The notes under the pieces were generated by a model. That model was not told where the DNA came from, did not search any database, and saw only the letters and a program-made list of their open reading frames with translations. A stretch of 64,000 nucleotides of DNA, from positions 1 to 64,000 of the forward strand of contig JAEPND010000012.1 of the NCBI GenBank assembly GCA_017643585.1. The letters are read 5' to 3'. Positions 45,993 through 53,855 of this stretch are shown here, one piece after another; the stretch's first letter is position 1, and each line of letters opens with the position of its first letter. A program made the position numbers and the translations under genes. The stretch comes from Maricaulis sp. (lineage in GTDB: Bacteria > Pseudomonadota > Alphaproteobacteria > Caulobacterales > Maricaulaceae).

Positions 45993-47438
45993 TCATTCGG
46001 CGGCGCCAGGCACCGCGTATTGAGGCGCCGGGCGTGCGAAGACACACAGCTCGGATTCCGCGACCGACAGCATTGCCTCAGGGGTTTCCATAAAGCGTCC
46101 GACCATCAACATGGCACATCCATCCCCACCCCATTGCTGGGTTGGACCATGCGCTTCCCCCCTCACGCTGACCACGCGGCTGTTCGCGAGGGTCTCGGCG
46201 GCGCGCAGCCCCCAGGCTGGAGGCGTCAGGGGATCGAACTCTCCCGCGACGATCAGGGTCGGCACTTCGGAAACCACCGGCGCAATGAACTCGGCGCCCA
46301 GCGGCGGCACATCCCAGGCGGCGCAAAGCTCTGGCCGGATCGCGGCGCTTTCATATCCGCCCAGTGCCGGCCCGGCTTGCGAACGCCGGCTCCGGTCACT
46401 GAAGGGCAAGGCCTCACGGCACCAGACCGACAGGCGCATGCCCCAGGCAAGATTGCTGGCCGCTCTCGGTCTGGACATCACACCGGCTATGCCTGGGTCG
46501 AGATTTGCAACGGCATCCATCCTGCCCGGAGCTGCGATGACATCGCGTCCCGAAGACAGGACAATCAGCGCGGCCAGGTCGGCCCCCGTCACAGGTTCGG
46601 CAAGACCTTCCATGCGGAACGGGGCACGTGTGGACGCTTCGATCCGATTGAAAAAGCGCGCTTCCAGGTCCGGATAGGCCGCCGCGCACGCCGGTTGCGC
46701 GGCACAATCTGTCGTGATCGCGCGCAGCGCAGCCTCGAAATTCACCGCGCTTTCATCGTCATAAATGGCGTTGGGCGGCAAGGGTGAATCAAGCACCATG
46801 GCCCGCAGGCTCGCGCTGTGATCTCGCGCATATGACAGCGCCAGCCGGGTCCCGTACGACACCGCATAGAGATTCCAACTCTCGATTTCCAACACCTGGC
46901 GCAGATCCTCGAGATCGGCAACGCTGGCCGGGCTGTGGTAGTGCTCCACGCCTATTCCCGCTGCGGTGAGGCGGTCGCGGCACTGGCGCACGGCATCGGC
47001 GAGATCGCTGCCGGAACTCACCGCATCCCGATACTCTGGGCACATCAAGGCCGGCTGTGCACTGGCAGTTCCGCGCTGACCGAAAACGATGAAATCCCGG
47101 TCTTCCAGCCAGGGGTAGGCGCCCGGATAAGCCGCCGCCGGAAGTCCTGATGCGCCAGGTCCACCGGCGAGATAAAGGACCGGTTCGCCTCCCCGTCCCG
47201 AGCGATTGTGCACGACGGCAACAGGCAGTCTGATCTCCGGGGACCGCGGATCTGTGCGATCCTCTGCGACCACCAGCCAGCCGCGGGTCGAGGCGAAGGA
47301 CGATGGCACTTGAACCGGAAAATCCTCACCCGCCGCCACCGGCTCGAACCGGGGCAATGATCGCTGTGGTTCACCGGCAGGTTGGCACGCCGCCAGCAGG
47401 ATCAGGAGCCCCAGGGACAAGACGGTCAGACGGCTCAT
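45993..47438 (-). CDS. Alpha/beta-hydrolase lipoprotein, S33-type tripeptidyl aminopeptidase-like
   Basis: A 481-residue exported hydrolase with a lipobox at residues ~16-19 (LLAAC). The fold shows the oxyanion region YLAGGPGASG, the nucleophile Ser in YAVSYGTRLALSYA, Asp in GEFDPLTPPAWG and His in GEAHGPTQQ. The C-terminal part matches the TAP-like domain of S33 peptidases. It probably removes N-terminal residues or peptides from extracytoplasmic substrates. AAGGAGAAAAAC directly precedes the ATG at 47438. Single gene, divergent from the KAS III operon. Confidence 0.88.
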   Translation of the reverse strand: MSRLTVLSLGLLILLAACQPAGEPQRSLPRFEPVAAGEDFPVQVPSSFASTRGWLVVAEDRTDPRSPEIRLPVAVVHNRSGRGGEPVLYLAGGPGASGLPAAAYPGAYPWLEDRDFIVFGQRGTASAQPALMCPEYRDAVSSGSDLADAVRQCRDRLTAAGIGVEHYHSPASVADLEDLRQVLEIESWNLYAVSYGTRLALSYARDHSASLRAMVLDSPLPPNAIYDDESAVNFEAALRAITTDCAAQPACAAAYPDLEARFFNRIEASTRAPFRMEGLAEPVTGADLAALIVLSSGRDVIAAPGRMDAVANLDPGIAGVMSRPRAASNLAWGMRLSVWCREALPFSDRSRRSQAGPALGGYESAAIRPELCAAWDVPPLGAEFIAPVVSEVPTLIVAGEFDPLTPPAWGLRAAETLANSRVVSVRGEAHGPTQQWGGDGCAMLMVGRFMETPEAMLSVAESELCVFARPAPQYAVPGAAE

Positions 47439-47759
47439 GTTTTTCTCCTTGCGACATGTCGAAAACCGCTGTGGTAAAGACGGGAAACGCACCGACAGGC
47501 TAGCTGATCGCCCTTGTAACTCAAGATTTCGAGCGCCGCAGGGTGCCACTCGCTAACAAAACACGACGAAAGCTGTCACTGACTATCTGTGAGGGCAAAT
47601 ACTAGGACGGATGGTCGAACCGGGACACAACCATCAACGATGTCCACCAATCAGGCTGATCCCACACGCCGACTGCATGTGAATCGAAATTTCATAGCCA
47701 AGCAAAAACCCAGGTTTTAGGATTCCCGTATCCCGGCAGAAGGCAATGACAGGCAGCAC
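47439..47759. other. Intergenic region between the S33 lipoprotein and the KAS III operon, 321 bp
   Basis: It holds the divergent promoters of both units. An inverted repeat lies at 47705-47718, and a five-codon frame (47746-47763) has a stop overlapping the KAS III start. I see no gene otherwise and no clear -35/-10 pair. Confidence 0.5.
47705..47718. promoter_or_regulatory. Inverted repeat AAAACC-CA-GGTTTT upstream of the KAS III operon
   Basis: A 6-bp inverted repeat with a 2-bp centre, 42 bp before the start of the six-gene operon. It could be an operator for an unlinked regulator; chance cannot be excluded. Confidence 0.35.
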
Positions 47760-48767
47760 ATGACAGCTAGCAATGGATCAGCGGCGATCACGGGCACCGG
47801 AATATTCCTGCCGGGCGCGCCGGTCAGATCGGACGAGCTGGATCAACGTCTCGGCATGCCGCGCGGCTGGCTTGAGGACAAATGCGGCGTTCAGACCCGC
47901 CATTATGCGACCGAAGCCGACAGCCAGGAAAGCATGGGCGTGGCAGCGGCCCGTGCGGCGCTTGCGGATGCGGGTATTGAACCGGATGATCTGGATCTTT
48001 TGATCTTTTGTGGTGCTGTCGGGCGACAGCCCGTGCCCGCAACCGCGCCACTGATCAAACGGGAGCTTGGACTGTCCGCCCGGGCCTTCCCGGCCTATGA
48101 CGTCAACGCGACCTGCCTGGGCACGCTGCTGGGCCTTGACCATGCCGCCATGGCGATCGCCACTGGTCGCGCCAGCACCGTGCTGGTGGTGGTCTCGGAA
48201 ATGCCTTCGCAAGCCATTCCGTGGAAACAGGATCCCACTACCGCCGGGCTGTTCGGCGACGGGGCGGCAGCGCTCGTCGTCGAGGCCGGGAGGGCGGGCG
48301 ATATGTGCCTGGGCCCCTTGCTGATGGAAACTCATGCGGACGGTTACGAATACTGCCAGGTCGGCTCCGGGGGTACGCGCTACAACCCGGTAACCGAGGC
48401 CGAGGCCTTCGAGGACAACGCCGTCTTCTCCATGGACGGGAAGGGCGTGTTCAAGCTCTCCTCGAGGACCTTCCCGCGCTTCCTCGACCAGGTGCTCGAC
48501 AGAACAGGTTGGTCATTGGGAGAGGTCGATCTTGTCGTGCCCCACCAGGCCAGTCCGCACGCCATATCCCTGATGGTCAAGCGCTGTGGCATCCGCCCCG
48601 AACAGATCTTTGATGTTGCCAAGACCATGGGCAACCAGGTTGCAGCCTCTTTGCCCATCGCCCTGCACCAGGCGCGTCTGGCCGGGCGCATCCAGTCGGG
48701 CATGAAAATCCTGATGGCCGGCACATCGGCGGGTATCTCGCTGGGTGCCATGACCGTGACGACGTGA
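47760..48767 (+). CDS. 3-oxoacyl-ACP synthase III family protein (KAS III/OleA-like)
   Basis: A 335-residue thiolase-fold condensing enzyme with a complete Cys-His-Asn triad: Cys119 (DVNATCLGTLLG), His262 (VPHQASPHAI) and Asn292 (TMGNQVAAS). It should load an acyl chain on Cys119 and condense it with a malonyl-type or second acyl unit. As first gene of a specialised operon lacking other fatty-acid synthesis genes, it is unlikely to be the housekeeping FabH. AGGCAGC is a modest ribosome binding site. Its stop TGA overlaps the next ATG (TGATG). Confidence 0.88.
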   Translation: MTASNGSAAITGTGIFLPGAPVRSDELDQRLGMPRGWLEDKCGVQTRHYATEADSQESMGVAAARAALADAGIEPDDLDLLIFCGAVGRQPVPATAPLIKRELGLSARAFPAYDVNATCLGTLLGLDHAAMAIATGRASTVLVVVSEMPSQAIPWKQDPTTAGLFGDGAAALVVEAGRAGDMCLGPLLMETHADGYEYCQVGSGGTRYNPVTEAEAFEDNAVFSMDGKGVFKLSSRTFPRFLDQVLDRTGWSLGEVDLVVPHQASPHAISLMVKRCGIRPEQIFDVAKTMGNQVAASLPIALHQARLAGRIQSGMKILMAGTSAGISLGAMTVTT

Positions 48768-49744
48768 TGATGCAGACGATCTGGGTCACCGGTGCGACCG
48801 GGTTTCTGGGCGGCCGGGTGGTCGAGGACTTGCTGGAGAGTGGCCATACGGTCATCGCCAGCGGTCGCCAGACCTATGTCCTCGATCGGTTGCAGAAAAA
48901 GGGCGCCCGGACACTCGCCTTCGATCTTGCCGATCCGACCCCGCCTGACCTGCCGGCGGTGGACGCGGTTGTGCACTGCGCCGCGCTGTCCAGTCCCTGG
49001 GGCCGTTATGCAGACTTTCACCGTGCCAATGTCATTGGCACACGATCCGCGCTGAAGCTGGCCCGGCAGGCGGGCGCGCAACGCTTCGTCCACATCTCCA
49101 CGCCCAGCGTCTATTTTCGTTTTCGCGACCAGTTGGACGTCCACGAAACACAGCCCCTGCCATCGCCGGTCAATGCCTATGCCGCCACCAAGGCCCGGGC
49201 CGAACAAGAGGTGCTGGCGCAGGAGGCGCTCGACCCGGTCATCCTGCGGCCGCGCGGGCTGTACGGGCGCGGCGACACTGCCCTGCTCCCACGCCTGATG
49301 GCGGCGGCCCGGGAACGTCCGCTGCCCCTGATGAACAAGGGTGAGACGGTCACCGATCTGACCCATGTCGACGATGTTGTTTCAGCGGTTCGCGCAGCGC
49401 TCGATCTCGCACCTGCCCCGACACAACGCCTGTTCAACATCTCGGGTGGGGAAGCCCTCAAGCTGAAATCCGTCACGGAAGAGGCGGGACGACGCGCCGG
49501 TGTCCCGGTCCGCTGGCGCCCGGTCCCCAGCTGGGCGGCGTTGACGTATGCACGCGGCCTGGAAACGATTGCTCGGATAAGTCCCGGTTACCCGGAACCG
49601 CGGATCACCGCCTATGGAGTCGGTCTGTTCGCCTACAGCCAGACGCTCGACATTTCCGCGGCGCGGGAGGTGCTGGGATGGACACCCAGGATCAACATTC
49701 AAGAGGGCCTGGGCCGCACCTTTTGCGAGGACACCGACGGATGA
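48767..49744 (+). CDS. NAD(P)-dependent epimerase/3-beta-HSD-type reductase (OleD-like)
   Basis: A 325-residue extended short-chain dehydrogenase. The Rossmann motif GATGFLGG lies at residues 9-16, the catalytic Tyr138-x-x-x-Lys142 in NAYAATK, and LYGRGDTALLPRL marks the substrate-side region of 3-beta-HSD/OleD-like members. It would reduce a beta-keto product of the condensing enzyme or oxidise a hydroxyl. It is coupled to the upstream gene by TGATG and to the downstream one by ATGA. Confidence 0.85.
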   Translation: MMQTIWVTGATGFLGGRVVEDLLESGHTVIASGRQTYVLDRLQKKGARTLAFDLADPTPPDLPAVDAVVHCAALSSPWGRYADFHRANVIGTRSALKLARQAGAQRFVHISTPSVYFRFRDQLDVHETQPLPSPVNAYAATKARAEQEVLAQEALDPVILRPRGLYGRGDTALLPRLMAAARERPLPLMNKGETVTDLTHVDDVVSAVRAALDLAPAPTQRLFNISGGEALKLKSVTEEAGRRAGVPVRWRPVPSWAALTYARGLETIARISPGYPEPRITAYGVGLFAYSQTLDISAAREVLGWTPRINIQEGLGRTFCEDTDG

Positions 49745-50511
49745 TGCCCAGCTTCCCCGACAGCGCCACGGTGCGCGCTCCAGAGCGGTTGGTGCTTCGC
49801 GGTGGTCGCTGGACAAGCCTCGACCTGACCGTGCGTTACGGGCGTTTCGAACATCCCGAGGCGGGCACTTGCCTGATCGATACGGGTTACACCTCGCGGG
49901 TGACCCGGGGCCGGCGCTCCTTCGCCCTGCGCGTCTATAACGCACTGCTCAAGCCCGAACTGTCCGCCGATGCCCTGCCTGCAGCCTGCCCAAAGGTCGA
50001 CACCATTCTGCTCAGCCACCTGCATGCCGACCATGTGTCCGGACTGCGTGATTATCCGAAGGCAAGGATCTATGCCCATGGCGGCAGTGTGGACCATTTC
50101 ATCCGGGCCAGCTGGCTGCATCGATCGACCCACGGGGTTTTTGCGGAACTGCTTCCCGATGACCTTGCAGACCGGATGATCCGGTTCGAGGACCTGCCGA
50201 TCGTTTCGGCCCCCTTGGGCCTGGGCCACGCCTACGACATCTTCGGTGATCAGAGCTTGCTGGCCGTGCCACTGCCCGGGCACATGCTCGGACATATGGG
50301 CTTTTGCTGGCCGGTGCCGGACAAGCCCATCCTCTATGCTGCCGACGCGCAATGGCTCCACCAGGCGGCAGTCGAGGGCACTCTGCCACCGCCACCCGCG
50401 CGCTGGATCCTGCATGATCCAAAAGCGGCGCTGGCCACCTCGGCGCGCATCGCCGACTTCGCACGCCAGGGCGGCCGGGTCATTTATTGCCACGATCCGG
50501 AGGCCGTGTGA
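49741..50511 (+). CDS. Metallo-beta-lactamase-fold hydrolase
   Basis: A 256-residue MBL-fold protein with the metal motif His93-x-His95-x-Asp97-His98 (LLSHLHADHVSG), further His ligands in PLPGHMLGHMG and Asp in YAADAQW. The layout resembles AHL-lactonase/thioesterase-like members. No signal peptide. A thioester, lactone or ester in the pathway is a sensible substrate, but this is inferred from fold and context only. The ATG at 49741 overlaps the preceding stop by four bases. Confidence 0.82.
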   Translation: MMPSFPDSATVRAPERLVLRGGRWTSLDLTVRYGRFEHPEAGTCLIDTGYTSRVTRGRRSFALRVYNALLKPELSADALPAACPKVDTILLSHLHADHVSGLRDYPKARIYAHGGSVDHFIRASWLHRSTHGVFAELLPDDLADRMIRFEDLPIVSAPLGLGHAYDIFGDQSLLAVPLPGHMLGHMGFCWPVPDKPILYAADAQWLHQAAVEGTLPPPPARWILHDPKAALATSARIADFARQGGRVIYCHDPEAV

Positions 50512-51794
50512 TGGCGCGGACGTCCGCCAGAATCCTGCTGGAAACCGCCCGGACCTGGCTGCAAACCCGCTGGCGTGCATCGCGCCTGGTGTCCCGCAGA
50601 GCAATCGAACAGCATCGGGAGCGACAACTCGGACGTTTCCTGAAAGAGGTCGCGCCGCGAGCAGAGGCCTTCCGTGATCTGGCCGGCCAGCCGCTGGAGG
50701 ACTTCCCGCGCATGGACAAGGCCAGGCTGATGGCCGGGTTTCATCGCTATAACCGCTTCGGGATCAGGGCCGAGGATGCCTGGGCGGCCATGGCGCGCGG
50801 CGAGACGCTGCACGGCTGCCATGTCGGCGCCAGCACAGGCACGAGCGGCAATCGCGGCCTCTACCTGGTCAACCCGATGGAGCGGGCACGCTGGCTGGGC
50901 GTGATGCTGGCCAAGACCGGTATCGATATCCTTCGCACCCGACAGCGTGTCGCCATCCTTCTGCCCACCAACAGCCAGCTCTATGAAACCGCCAATGAAA
51001 GCGGGCGGCTCCGGCTGGTCTTCTTTGATCTAAATGAGGGGGTTGCCGCTCACGCGGAGGCCCTGTCCAGCTTCGACCCGACCGTGCTGGTCGCCACACC
51101 TCACGTGCTTAGCTTGCTGGCCGAGATGGATATCGCGCTGAACCCCGAGGTGATCTTTTCCGGCGCGGAGGTACTCGACCCCACGGATCGCAGGACGATC
51201 GAAACCCGCTTCCAGCGCACCGTGCGCGAAATCTATATGGCGACCGAGGGCCTGTTCGCGGTCGCCTGTTCCCATGGCCGCCTGCATCTCACCGAGGATA
51301 TGATGGCGTTCGAATGGGACAGCCAGCCGGACCTGCCCGGACTGCTTGCCCCGGTGATCACGGACTTCTCGCGCACCTCCCAGATGATGGTGCGCTATCA
51401 GATGAATGACCTCCTGCGCCTCGCCGACACGCCCTGCCCCTGCGGATCAGCTTTGCAGGCAGTCGACGAGATTGTCGGGCGACGCGATGACATTTTCGAC
51501 CTGCCGGGCACGGTTGGCCGCATCCCGGTCACCCCGGATATCATCCGCAATGCGATCATTCGCACCAGCCCGCGCATCGAGGATTTCCGCGTCACCCAGA
51601 CCGGCGCGGCCGAGATCGCCCTGGTCCTGCCCGAGGACTGTGCGGATTTGACGGGCGATGCGGCACAGGCGCTGAACACATTGTTCGCCCGGTTGGGGGC
51701 AAACGCCGACATCACCGCACATGCCGCCCCGCTGGTCAGCCCGCAGACCCGCAAGCTCCGCCGGGTTGTGCGCGAATGGCGGGGACCGGCATGA
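50511..51794 (+). CDS. Adenylate-forming enzyme, F390-synthetase/PaaK-like (TIGR02304-like)
   Basis: A 427-residue ANL-superfamily ligase of the PaaK/coenzyme-F390-synthetase branch. The P-loop-like GASTGTSGNRGLY is at ~109-121; FSGAEVLDP and IYMATEGLFAVAC form the adenylate-binding region; CPCGSALQAVDEIVGRRDD resembles the hinge segment of PaaK enzymes; TRKLRRVVREW near the end holds the basic C-terminal residues. It should activate a carboxylate as acyl-AMP; the acceptor is unknown. The start shares one base with the preceding stop (TGATG), and its stop overlaps the next start. Confidence 0.82.
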   Translation: MARTSARILLETARTWLQTRWRASRLVSRRAIEQHRERQLGRFLKEVAPRAEAFRDLAGQPLEDFPRMDKARLMAGFHRYNRFGIRAEDAWAAMARGETLHGCHVGASTGTSGNRGLYLVNPMERARWLGVMLAKTGIDILRTRQRVAILLPTNSQLYETANESGRLRLVFFDLNEGVAAHAEALSSFDPTVLVATPHVLSLLAEMDIALNPEVIFSGAEVLDPTDRRTIETRFQRTVREIYMATEGLFAVACSHGRLHLTEDMMAFEWDSQPDLPGLLAPVITDFSRTSQMMVRYQMNDLLRLADTPCPCGSALQAVDEIVGRRDDIFDLPGTVGRIPVTPDIIRNAIIRTSPRIEDFRVTQTGAAEIALVLPEDCADLTGDAAQALNTLFARLGANADITAHAAPLVSPQTRKLRRVVREWRGPA

Positions 51795-52768
51795 AGAAAT
51801 CCGCCTGGTATCCCGTCGCTGCGACACGCGACCTGCGCGCTGGTCCCGCAAAGGCCCAGCTGTTCGGGACGCCGCTTGTCATCTGGCGAGGCGAGGACGG
51901 TTACGGCGCACTGGCCGACATCTGCCCGCACCGCGGGGCGCCGCTGTCGGAAGGGTGCGTAGACAAGGCCGCGATCACCTGCCCCTATCACGGATGGCGC
52001 TTTGGCCCTGACGGGCAGTGCGTGGCGATGCCGGCCCTGGCGGAAACACCATCCCGCATCCGCGCCCAGGCCTTTGCGGCCGCGGAACATGACGGGCTGG
52101 TCTTCGTCCAGATGGAAGCCTCGAGGCACGACTTTGCACCGCCCCCGCCGCAGCAGGACATTGCGTCTGCAACGCGCGAGGACTCGGTTACCATTCGGGC
52201 GTCGCTGGCCGACATGGCGGAGAATATCCTGGACACCACTCATACCTCTGTCGTGCACGCCGGCTATCTGCGCCAGGCCACCCGGCGTCAACTCGTCCAG
52301 CCCGAAGTGCGCTGCGGGGCGGACTGGATCGAGGTCGTCTATCCGGAAAGCGCCACGCCCAGCGGCCTGGTCTCCCGCCTGTTCGGGACGGATTGTTACG
52401 AGATCACCGACCGGTTTCGCGCCCCCGGCATTGCCGAGGTGGAATACCGGTGCAACGGTCGGATCGAATTTGCCTCGCGCTTTTACCTCTCCCCTGCCAG
52501 CGATAACGAAACCCGGATTTTCTCCAGGCTCTCCATTCGCGGAACTTCGCTGTTGTCCCAGCTGAAAGTCTCCATTGTCCGGGCCATGCTGCGCCGGGTG
52601 GTGTCCGAGGACGAGGAGATACTGGGCCTGGTGACCGACAACGTCGAACGCTTTGGACGCCGTCCCGGTCTCATCGCTCCGCAGGACTTCCTGCGTGCGG
52701 GCATCGACGCCATCCTGCGCGGTGAGGCGCCAGAGCGGCCCGACCACGTCCCGCAGATCTACGTGTGA
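51791..52768 (+). CDS. Rieske non-haem iron oxygenase
   Basis: A 325-residue single-component oxygenase alpha-subunit-like protein. The Rieske cluster is bound by Cys45-Pro-His47 (CPHRGAPLSEG) and Cys64-Pro-Tyr-His67 (CPYHGWRF). The mononuclear iron site is visible as Asp148, His151 and His156 (NILDTTHTSVVHAG). Such enzymes hydroxylate, desaturate or demethylate. No reductase or ferredoxin is encoded nearby, so electrons must come from a shared system. The ATG at 51791 overlaps the ligase stop by four bases. Confidence 0.9.
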   Translation: MKKSAWYPVAATRDLRAGPAKAQLFGTPLVIWRGEDGYGALADICPHRGAPLSEGCVDKAAITCPYHGWRFGPDGQCVAMPALAETPSRIRAQAFAAAEHDGLVFVQMEASRHDFAPPPPQQDIASATREDSVTIRASLADMAENILDTTHTSVVHAGYLRQATRRQLVQPEVRCGADWIEVVYPESATPSGLVSRLFGTDCYEITDRFRAPGIAEVEYRCNGRIEFASRFYLSPASDNETRIFSRLSIRGTSLLSQLKVSIVRAMLRRVVSEDEEILGLVTDNVERFGRRPGLIAPQDFLRAGIDAILRGEAPERPDHVPQIYV

Positions 52769-52775
52769 GACCGCG

Positions 52776-53855
52776 ATGTCATTTGCCACGAGCCTGAACT
52801 TCACCTCGTCGAATGAGGATGGCCGCACCGAGCTGGCGGCACTCGCCCTGTCACCGGATGATCGCGTGCTCTGCCTCACGGCCAGTGGCACCCGGCCGCT
52901 TGATCTCCTGTTGGGAGATCCCGGCGACATCCTCGCCATCGACATCAACCCGGCCCAGAACCATCTTCTGAGGCTCAAAATCGCGGCCTTCAAAACCCTG
53001 TCCGATGACGAGTTATATGCCTATCTGGGGCTTGAGCAGACAGCAGACCGGCTGGCCATACATGCCCGGGTCGAAACCGCATTGTCAGAGGACGCGCGCC
53101 GGTTCTGGAGCGCGAGAACGGCGGTCATCCGCAAAGGTGTCTGGAAAACCGGGCGATGGGAACGGGTCTTGCGTTTCCTGGCGGGCATACTGCGCCTGGT
53201 CAGGGGCCGCCGGCTCGATCAGCTTTTTGCGGCCCGGACGGTCGAGGAACAACATCAGATCTGGCTGGAGCATTTCGAGGATGCCTTCTGGAAATCCAGT
53301 ATTCACCTGCTCTCCAGCCGCTTCTTCTGGACCCATGTCATCGGCGAGCCGGGCGGACAATTCCTGCCTGACCGCACCGAAACCACCCGGCGCCTGACTG
53401 CGGCCTTCCACAATGCCAGCAAACATTTCCTCTTCAGCCAGTCCGATTTCGCGACCCTGATCTTTCTGGGCCAGCACACATCCAGCAGCGCTCTGCCTGT
53501 ACACCTGCAGCGCGCCAATCTCGCGCTTGTGCGCGACCGCCTGGATCGGATCCAGATCGCCGATATCGACCTCGCCGCTCTGGAGTCTGATCAGTACGGA
53601 AGCTTTTCGGCCTTTTCGCTGTCCGATTTCGGTTCCTACTGCACGCCTCAAGCCTATGCGGCGTGCTGGGATGGCGTGCTGAAAACCGCCCGACCTGGCG
53701 CGCGCTTCTGCGAACGCGCCTTCATGAACCCGCTCGCCCTGCCGACCGCGTTCGAACACCGGATATCCCTGGACAACTCCCTGTCAGACCAGCTCTCCAC
53801 CCGCGACCGAGCGATCATCTATGACATCCGCGCCGGACGGCTGGATTGCAGCTAG
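52776..53855 (+). CDS. DUF3419/BtaA-like SAM:3-amino-3-carboxypropyl transferase family protein
   Basis: A 359-residue protein. Residues ~30-75 match the SAM-binding region of BtaA (VLCLTASGTRPLDLLL, then LAIDINPAQNHLLRLKIAAF), and the C-terminal part (SFSAFSLSDFGSY, RDRAIIYDIRAGRL) also fits. BtaA moves the aminocarboxypropyl group of SAM onto diacylglycerol as the first step to betaine lipids. No BtaB methyltransferase is adjacent, so the acceptor here may be the product of the upstream genes. It starts 7 bp after the Rieske gene and is the last gene of the six-gene unit. I found no convincing terminator in the 80 bp that follow. Confidence 0.82.
   Translation: MSFATSLNFTSSNEDGRTELAALALSPDDRVLCLTASGTRPLDLLLGDPGDILAIDINPAQNHLLRLKIAAFKTLSDDELYAYLGLEQTADRLAIHARVETALSEDARRFWSARTAVIRKGVWKTGRWERVLRFLAGILRLVRGRRLDQLFAARTVEEQHQIWLEHFEDAFWKSSIHLLSSRFFWTHVIGEPGGQFLPDRTETTRRLTAAFHNASKHFLFSQSDFATLIFLGQHTSSSALPVHLQRANLALVRDRLDRIQIADIDLAALESDQYGSFSAFSLSDFGSYCTPQAYAACWDGVLKTARPGARFCERAFMNPLALPTAFEHRISLDNSLSDQLSTRDRAIIYDIRAGRLDCS

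Follow-up and report, generated by a model that had tools for sequence, protein, structure and literature searches.

A conserved four-gene core and an exchanged candidate head-group position around a DUF3419 operon of Maricaulis

Introduction

BtaA of betaine-lipid synthesis is, to our knowledge, the only described function of the DUF3419 family. Two further systems resemble the locus described here in their enzyme classes. The Ole olefin/beta-lactone pathway uses a KAS III (beta-ketoacyl synthase III), the reductase OleD and an adenylate-forming enzyme. The pqsABCDE genes of the Pseudomonas quinolone signal (PQS) encode the ligase PqsA, the KAS III PqsD and PqsE, a thioesterase of the metallo-beta-lactamase (MBL) fold. 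Here, we analyse a stretch of 64,000 nucleotides from Maricaulis sp. (assembly GCA_017643585.1, contig JAEPND010000012.1, positions 1 to 64,000; hereafter the window). Six plus-strand open reading frames at 47760-53855 encode a KAS III, a short-chain dehydrogenase/reductase (SDR), an MBL-fold protein, a TIGR02304 ligase, a Rieske oxygenase and a DUF3419 protein. With moderate confidence, we propose that this operon is one member of a pathway family in which a conserved four-gene core is combined with an exchangeable head-group enzyme.

According to PMC10491745, the small-molecule aminocarboxypropyl transferases include BtaA, NAT and discadenine synthase. Aminolipids, as reviewed in PMC11631085, are similar in that 3-hydroxyacyl chains are joined to an amino-acid head group and N-acyltransferases take part. 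They differ from the present case, since the window operon contains no OlsB/OlsA-type gene and its head group would derive from S-adenosylmethionine (SAM). Among the matches listed in our search of the open-access literature, neither the core nor the head-group exchange nor a role of the operon-type, non-BtaA DUF3419 protein was described. Mentions of F390 in two Pseudomonas papers and one ladderane paper yielded nothing of use. The original prediction, made from the window alone, had seen no known product of the operon. This agrees with the literature searched, but the prediction missed that the operon belongs to a family with an exchanged decorating enzyme. Core-plus-tailoring families are a familiar kind of biosynthetic system; what stands out here is how clearly a single position is exchanged.

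The Maricaulis operon and its four-gene core

The coordinates are compiled in Table 1. Along the operon, the genes are joined by TGATG, ATGATG (to be read as ATGA or TGATG), TGATG and ATGA, followed by a gap of 7 bases. Genes, families, overlaps and gap are all as originally described for a six-gene translationally coupled operon. All six genes are found in the same order in a second Maricaulis genome (G004) at 90-94% identity and in three genomes of another family (G1002, G914 and G800 of family f2) at 35-60% protein identity. With the window genome (G000), the exact order KAS-SDR-MBL-LIG-Rieske-DUF3419 is thus present in five genomes. Its recurrence at both levels of identity argues that this order is more than chance.

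Table 1. Coordinates of the operon genes and of related features
Feature	Position	Strand	Family or evidence
KAS III-type ketosynthase, core gene 1	47760..48767	+	PF08541/PF08545; ACP_syn_III_C 86 bits
NAD(P)-dependent SDR, core gene 2	48767..49744 (frame opens 48764, ATG 48767)	+	Epimerase PF01370, 125 bits
MBL-fold metallohydrolase, core gene 3	49741..50511	+	Lactamase_B PF00753, 42 bits
F390-synthetase-related/PaaK-like adenylate-forming ligase, core gene 4	50511..51794 (frame opens 50508, ATG 50511)	+	TIGR02304
Rieske non-haem iron oxygenase, accessory	51791..52768	+	PF00355 (Rieske 88 bits) and VanA_C
DUF3419 protein, putative SAM 3-amino-3-carboxypropyl transferase, variable head-group position	52776..53855	+	PF11899, 200 bits
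Clusterless Rieske relatives beside DUF3419	L122:7382-8236, L123:7791-8645, L124:7881-8735		alignment
Enterobacterial core with PAP2/desaturase genes	L091:7200-14081; NZ_CP051263.1:1533563-1540444		narI-purU interval
TAP-like alpha/beta-hydrolase, lipoprotein-like start (own reading)	45993..47444	-	Abhydrolase_4

The distribution of the core was studied in 56 ligase-bearing loci: the window genome, 11 genomes from searches of relatives, class and phylum, 19 plasmid records (taken from matches in 65 and 71 records), six further Maricaulis genomes and another 19 genomes from the order. G004 was found first via DUF3419 and later via the ligase. L069 (G138, TIGR02304 E 5e-31) was read, contains no core and stands outside the 56; weaker PaaK-family matches were left out. 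In 53 of the 56 loci, KAS III, SDR, MBL and ligase genes lie within 8 kb of each other. The concern that the genes might rarely be adjacent in relatives is thus not borne out for the core, nor, with five genomes, for the six-gene order, though most ligase loci have another gene where DUF3419 stands in the window. The three incomplete loci comprise L093 with ligase and ATP-grasp genes only, L104 with scattered genes and L134, which stops where its contig ends. L093 (Pseudomonas amygdali pMPPla107) and L104 (a plasmid of Pseudomonas sp. Leaf58) are both megaplasmids that carry the ligase and an ATP-grasp gene. Gene order or direction deviates in eight of the 53 complete cores (L094, L102, L105, L135-L139), and in L096 the KAS gene precedes the SDR gene by the annotation of the record. 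The hosts belong to the Alpha-, Beta- and Gammaproteobacteria and the Bacillota, with a single record from Fusobacterium. When the order was sampled evenly, the ligase was found in 27 of 299 genomes (E 1e-35). All 27 were read and 26 have the whole core (the 27th is interrupted by a contig end), so that, among ligases of this strength, core co-occurrence is not an artefact of the choice of loci; L069 shows that a weaker relative can lack the core.

The residues that we take, from family knowledge, to be catalytic in the KAS, SDR, MBL, ligase and Rieske proteins were compared. Invariant in 51 of 51 aligned loci are C119/H262/N292 of the KAS, Y139/K143 of the SDR, HxHxDH with H183 and D204 of the MBL protein and E258/D312/R336/K427 of the ligase (numbers follow the extracted rows; the ligase row begins 11 residues ahead of the ATG). 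The original prediction had likewise found all active-site residues that it could check, and the window Rieske protein has its motifs, too. Because the motifs of ligase, KAS, SDR and MBL protein are intact, the biosynthetic core is likely to be active. The window ligase exceeds the curated TIGR02304 cut-off (276.5 vs 251.9 bits), and the ligase of the E. coli cluster described below reaches 755.5 bits. The name of this model records kinship to F390 synthetase alone and states no reaction. At L086:7482-8491, the SDR gene appears in two pieces in an otherwise whole locus, possibly by a frameshift or an error.

One position, different candidate head-group genes

Of the 56 loci, 21 contain an ATP-grasp gene no more than 8 kb from the ligase, 15 a glycosyltransferase gene and eight a DUF3419 gene. 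In five loci, genes for PAP2, a fatty acid hydroxylase and a desaturase are found instead, in three a sulfotransferase gene and in four none of these. The types exclude each other in the loci examined: two of them were never found in one locus (0/56). The blastp search behind these counts (E 1e-7) covered the same distance, so that remoter or diverged genes would escape. The glycosyltransferase with its EryCIII-like C-terminal domain was recognised by Pfam in five of the 15 cases and assigned by similarity in the others. In L092, L099 and L101 (plasmids of Paracoccus and Ketogulonicigenium), the sulfotransferase gene is divergent and lies with a gene for a TetR-type regulator upstream of the KAS gene.

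In the company of Rieske or GNAT genes, DUF3419 loci resemble ATP-grasp loci. At least one of the two is present in 8/8 DUF3419 loci and 18/21 ATP-grasp loci, but only in 1/27 other loci, the truncated L134. Taken separately, Rieske genes occur in 16/21 ATP-grasp and 5/8 DUF3419 loci and elsewhere in L134 only; GNAT-like genes occur in 15/21 and 3/8, respectively, and in L134. In the genus Maricaulis, the core is followed by Rieske-DUF3419 in two genomes and by the glycosyltransferase in six (in one case incomplete where the contig ends). A core-DUF3419-GNAT arrangement is carried by plasmids of Rhizobium sp. NIBRBAC000502774, Shinella oryzae and Rhizobium rhododendri. In another plasmid of Shinella oryzae, the ligase and DUF3419 matches lie close together.

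Mapped onto a phylogeny built from the concatenated core proteins (51 loci, without L093, L104, L105, L117 and L134; computed by a quick method and with long-branch warnings), the head-group states need eight changes, at least three of which concern DUF3419. The position has therefore been exchanged repeatedly. Change counts cannot separate gain from loss. Since the divergence of the DUF3419 proteins roughly tracks that of the core, DUF3419 may equally well have been there early and been replaced afterwards as have been gained several times.

The operon DUF3419 protein and BtaA

With 199.9 bits against a gathering cut-off of 28.2, the window protein clearly belongs to PF11899. As in BtaA, the Rossmann-type glycine (G38) and aspartate (D56) are kept. 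In a tree with a long-branch warning, the eight operon DUF3419 proteins form one clade (100/100) apart from 14 alphaproteobacterial BtaA proteins (100/97) and from a third group. Here, the label BtaA means about 340-383 bits with PF11899 and, by our own reading, a BtaB-like neighbour in at least four of six loci. In a comparison of five operon rows with 30 BtaA rows, several near-invariant BtaA residues are replaced by others that are themselves invariant in the operon clade. The operon protein differs further from BtaA in its KAS/SDR/MBL/ligase context.

In the window genome, no second DUF3419 gene was found. A BtaB-like query found no convincing BtaB in G000 and G004: the best matches have E values of 1.1e-7 and 2.4e-7, show 31-32% identity over a part and sit in frames twice as long, on contigs other than that of DUF3419. 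Operon-type DUF3419 genes are present in six of the 299 genomes of the order. Five lie beside the core, and the sixth (G1023) is a fragment at a contig end. Among all nine operon-type loci read, the gene adjoins the core in eight, and the ninth ends at the contig edge. This ninth locus (L142; G1023:C10:1-3159) contains the Rieske-DUF3419 pair (45% and 76% identical, respectively) beside a frame read as aspartyl-tRNA synthetase-like.

A search of PDB sequences with the DUF3419 protein yielded no chain up to E 1. A structure prediction from two sequences (window and L070) had a mean predicted local distance difference test (pLDDT) score of 36.3 and was discarded. Given the known aminocarboxypropyl transferases BtaA, NAT and discadenine synthase (PMC10491745), we infer that the operon protein would also transfer such a group and that the core product would accept it. 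Proteins of a third DUF3419 type (26-31% identity with that of the window) were observed at L065, L068 and L143-L146 in a neighbourhood that, judged by eye, seems to recur. Pfam scans, confined to L143 and L145, revealed a PPDK_N protein (L143), UbiA-type proteins and AMP-binding ligases.

Rieske proteins without an iron-sulphur cluster site

The window Rieske protein contains both the CxH...CxxH cluster site and the NxxDxxHxxxxH motif for mononuclear iron. The [2Fe-2S] motif is present in 19 of 22 Rieske rows. It is missing in the proteins of G1002, G914 and G800, where an alignment gap spans the whole CxH...CxxH region and all four ligands are gone, and ENILDTTHTSVVH is unchanged. Since the loss is common to three genomes, a sequencing error is unlikely. 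The only row without the mononuclear motif (L100:13570-14539) is a fragment of a Rieske gene in two frames, possibly due to a frameshift or an error. The clusterless relatives would allow a test of whether the oxygenase fold can work without its cluster.

The enterobacterial version

In E. coli CFT073, the core is located between narI and purU and is accompanied by genes for PAP2, a sterol-desaturase-family protein and an acyl-CoA desaturase. This cluster has the same four core genes in the same order as the window, but PAP2 and di-iron-type lipid enzymes where the window has Rieske and DUF3419 genes. Desaturases and a fatty acid hydroxylase accompany the enterobacterial loci. Matches occur in 672 of 5,426 complete E. 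coli genomes, in 671 of them over at least 80% of the query. In a CFT073 transposon screen for systemic infection (PMC3855560), c1689, a putative 3-oxoacyl-ACP synthase III, has a fitness factor of 8.47 against a threshold of 6.41 and is the final entry among the 50 mutants with the strongest defect. By annotation and position, c1689 would be the KAS of this cluster, which provides a lead only. As the nearby narX and ychK appear in the same table, the signal may be a regional one (PMC3855560).

Alternative readings

Could the core follow the Ole pathway? In this case, the KAS III would carry out a head-to-head condensation of two fatty acyl chains, the SDR would yield a 2-alkyl-3-hydroxy acid, the ligase would form a beta-lactone or ester, and the DUF3419 and Rieske proteins would decorate it. 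An adenylate-forming enzyme is present as in Ole, desaturases and a fatty acid hydroxylase are found in the enterobacterial loci, and the two nearest NCBIfam models of the window SDR are OleD (NF042422, 176.9 bits) and its Shewanella counterpart (140 bits). However, this SDR score is far below the OleD cut-off of 580, and the ligase belongs to the short PaaK/F390 type. The KAS, which has ACP_syn_III domains and the Cys-His-Asn triad of a KAS III, is closest to FabH-type and CorB structures: 4ryb, 4v2p and CorB 4yuc score 156-167 bits, but 3row only 75 bits (3row is presumably OleA, 4v2p MxnB and 4ryb from Neisseria). In addition, the genes oleA, oleB, oleC and oleD do not occur together among the operon genes, to which this comparison was confined. 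The original prediction had noted a resemblance to Ole condensation without OleB. The absence of OleB from the operon stands; the closer analogy fails on the SDR score, the KAS relatives and the lack of both an OleC- and an OleB-type gene. A strict Ole pathway is thus disfavoured by the model scores, and we regard it as quite unlikely. Synthesis of a PQS-like signal appears unlikely as well. Here, the ligase would act as PqsA, the KAS III as PqsD and the MBL protein as the thioesterase PqsE to give a short or aromatic ketone, which would be reduced by the SDR and capped with an aminocarboxypropyl group. The shared enzyme classes, a KAS match to 3h76 ('PQS biosynthetic enzyme', 110 bits) and the MBL protein speak for it. 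The latter has HxHxDH plus further His and Asp residues and weakly resembles acyl-homoserine lactone (AHL) signal lactonases, although its 44.1 bits with NF045700 lie far below the AttM cut-off of 390. Against it, the Maricaulis operon contains no regulator gene, the KAS is nearer to the FabH/CorB types, and versions with PAP2, fatty acid hydroxylase and desaturase suggest larger, membrane-type products.

Two other readings do without a new biosynthetic product. Rieske, ligase, SDR and lactonase-like enzymes are, by family knowledge, frequent in degradation operons, and the present ones might degrade an aromatic or lactone substrate. Yet a KAS III belongs to the core, its partners (glycosyltransferase, sulfotransferase, desaturase and DUF3419) are of kinds used in biosynthesis, and a domain scan of the operon revealed neither a transporter nor a reductase gene. 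Catabolism is therefore very improbable. That DUF3419 is an ordinary BtaA which makes betaine lipid from diacylglycerol beside unrelated neighbours had been named as a possible objection from the outset. PF11899 membership and the retained Rossmann-type glycine and aspartate are compatible with it, but the separate clade, the replaced residues, the lack of a convincing BtaB and the almost constant position beside the core disfavour it, and its probability is very low indeed.

The proposed pathway

The best reading remains a pathway that makes a scaffold, includes an oxygenase and adds a decoration derived from SAM, as proposed originally for this one operon, now as a member of the core-plus-head-group family. 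The ligase would activate a carboxylic acid as adenylate or thioester. The KAS III would elongate or condense it, the SDR would reduce the beta-keto group so formed, and the MBL enzyme might hydrolyse or cyclise the thioester or ester to an acyl scaffold with a hydroxy and/or carboxy group. To this core product, DUF3419 would attach the aminocarboxypropyl group of SAM, where sister loci would employ another head-group enzyme. The Rieske oxygenase might then oxidise the amino-acid-type product. For ATP-grasp and GNAT loci, it is of note that ATP-grasp enzymes join a fatty acid to histidine and GNATs N-acylate amino acids (PMC11631085). The product is probably lipid-like, given the enterobacterial PAP2, fatty acid hydroxylase and desaturase partners and the KAS III chemistry.

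Several points weigh against this reading. Every reaction in the scheme and its product are predictions from sequence. One common scaffold is an assumption, because other types of genes occur in the enterobacterial loci and in those with a sulfotransferase. The term head group for ATP-grasp, GNAT and glycosyltransferase proteins rests on family membership: among the ATP-grasp proteins scanned, one exceeds the Pfam cut-off and the others are below it or unmatched, both their NCBIfam matches fall below cut-off, and one of four GNAT-like proteins passes Pfam, the Rhizobium GNAT being assigned by similarity. In DUF3419, the near-invariant LLDAQDWM of BtaA reads LSDFGSYC in the window (Q/D/W/M to G/S/Y/C), so that its reaction may have changed. 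The Rieske-DUF3419 pair of G1023 is on a short contig with no core visible. TIGR02304 hits over cut-off are patchy (just 1/385 class and 7/398 phylum genomes), with a cut-off that misses some core members. Finally, the loci are related by descent and their counts are not independent; a Fisher p of 1e-11 obtained from them ignores this relatedness and is not relied on.

A more far-reaching version is offered tentatively, as we consider it rather less than probable. An old four-gene scaffold pathway, present in three phyla and in roughly an eighth of the complete E. coli genomes, would make an undescribed membrane-associated acyl metabolite. Its head group (an amino acid via ATP-grasp, a sugar via the glycosyltransferase, sulfate or, in Maricaulis and relatives, a SAM-derived homoserine ether or ester via a second, non-betaine-lipid kind of DUF3419) would be changed by replacement of one gene. 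The Rieske protein of one sister lineage would have dropped its [2Fe-2S] cluster, and any activity it has would depend on electrons supplied along another route. If the proposed pathway is true, an orphan marine operon is linked to an orphan cluster of the 672 E. coli genomes including CFT073, and DUF3419 enzymes gain a second role beyond betaine lipids. Since species of one genus differ in the head-group gene, a comparison of their extracts should then reveal a shared scaffold.

A neighbouring hydrolase gene

A gene for a TAP-like hydrolase lies divergently beside the operon. It is 98% identical to a gene beside the operon in the other DUF3419-type Maricaulis. Among the 19 genomes of the genus, only these two DUF3419-type carriers have a match (E 1e-30) and the other 17 have none; the other loci scanned are without a match as well. 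The hydrolase is a possible companion of the operon, outside its transcript.

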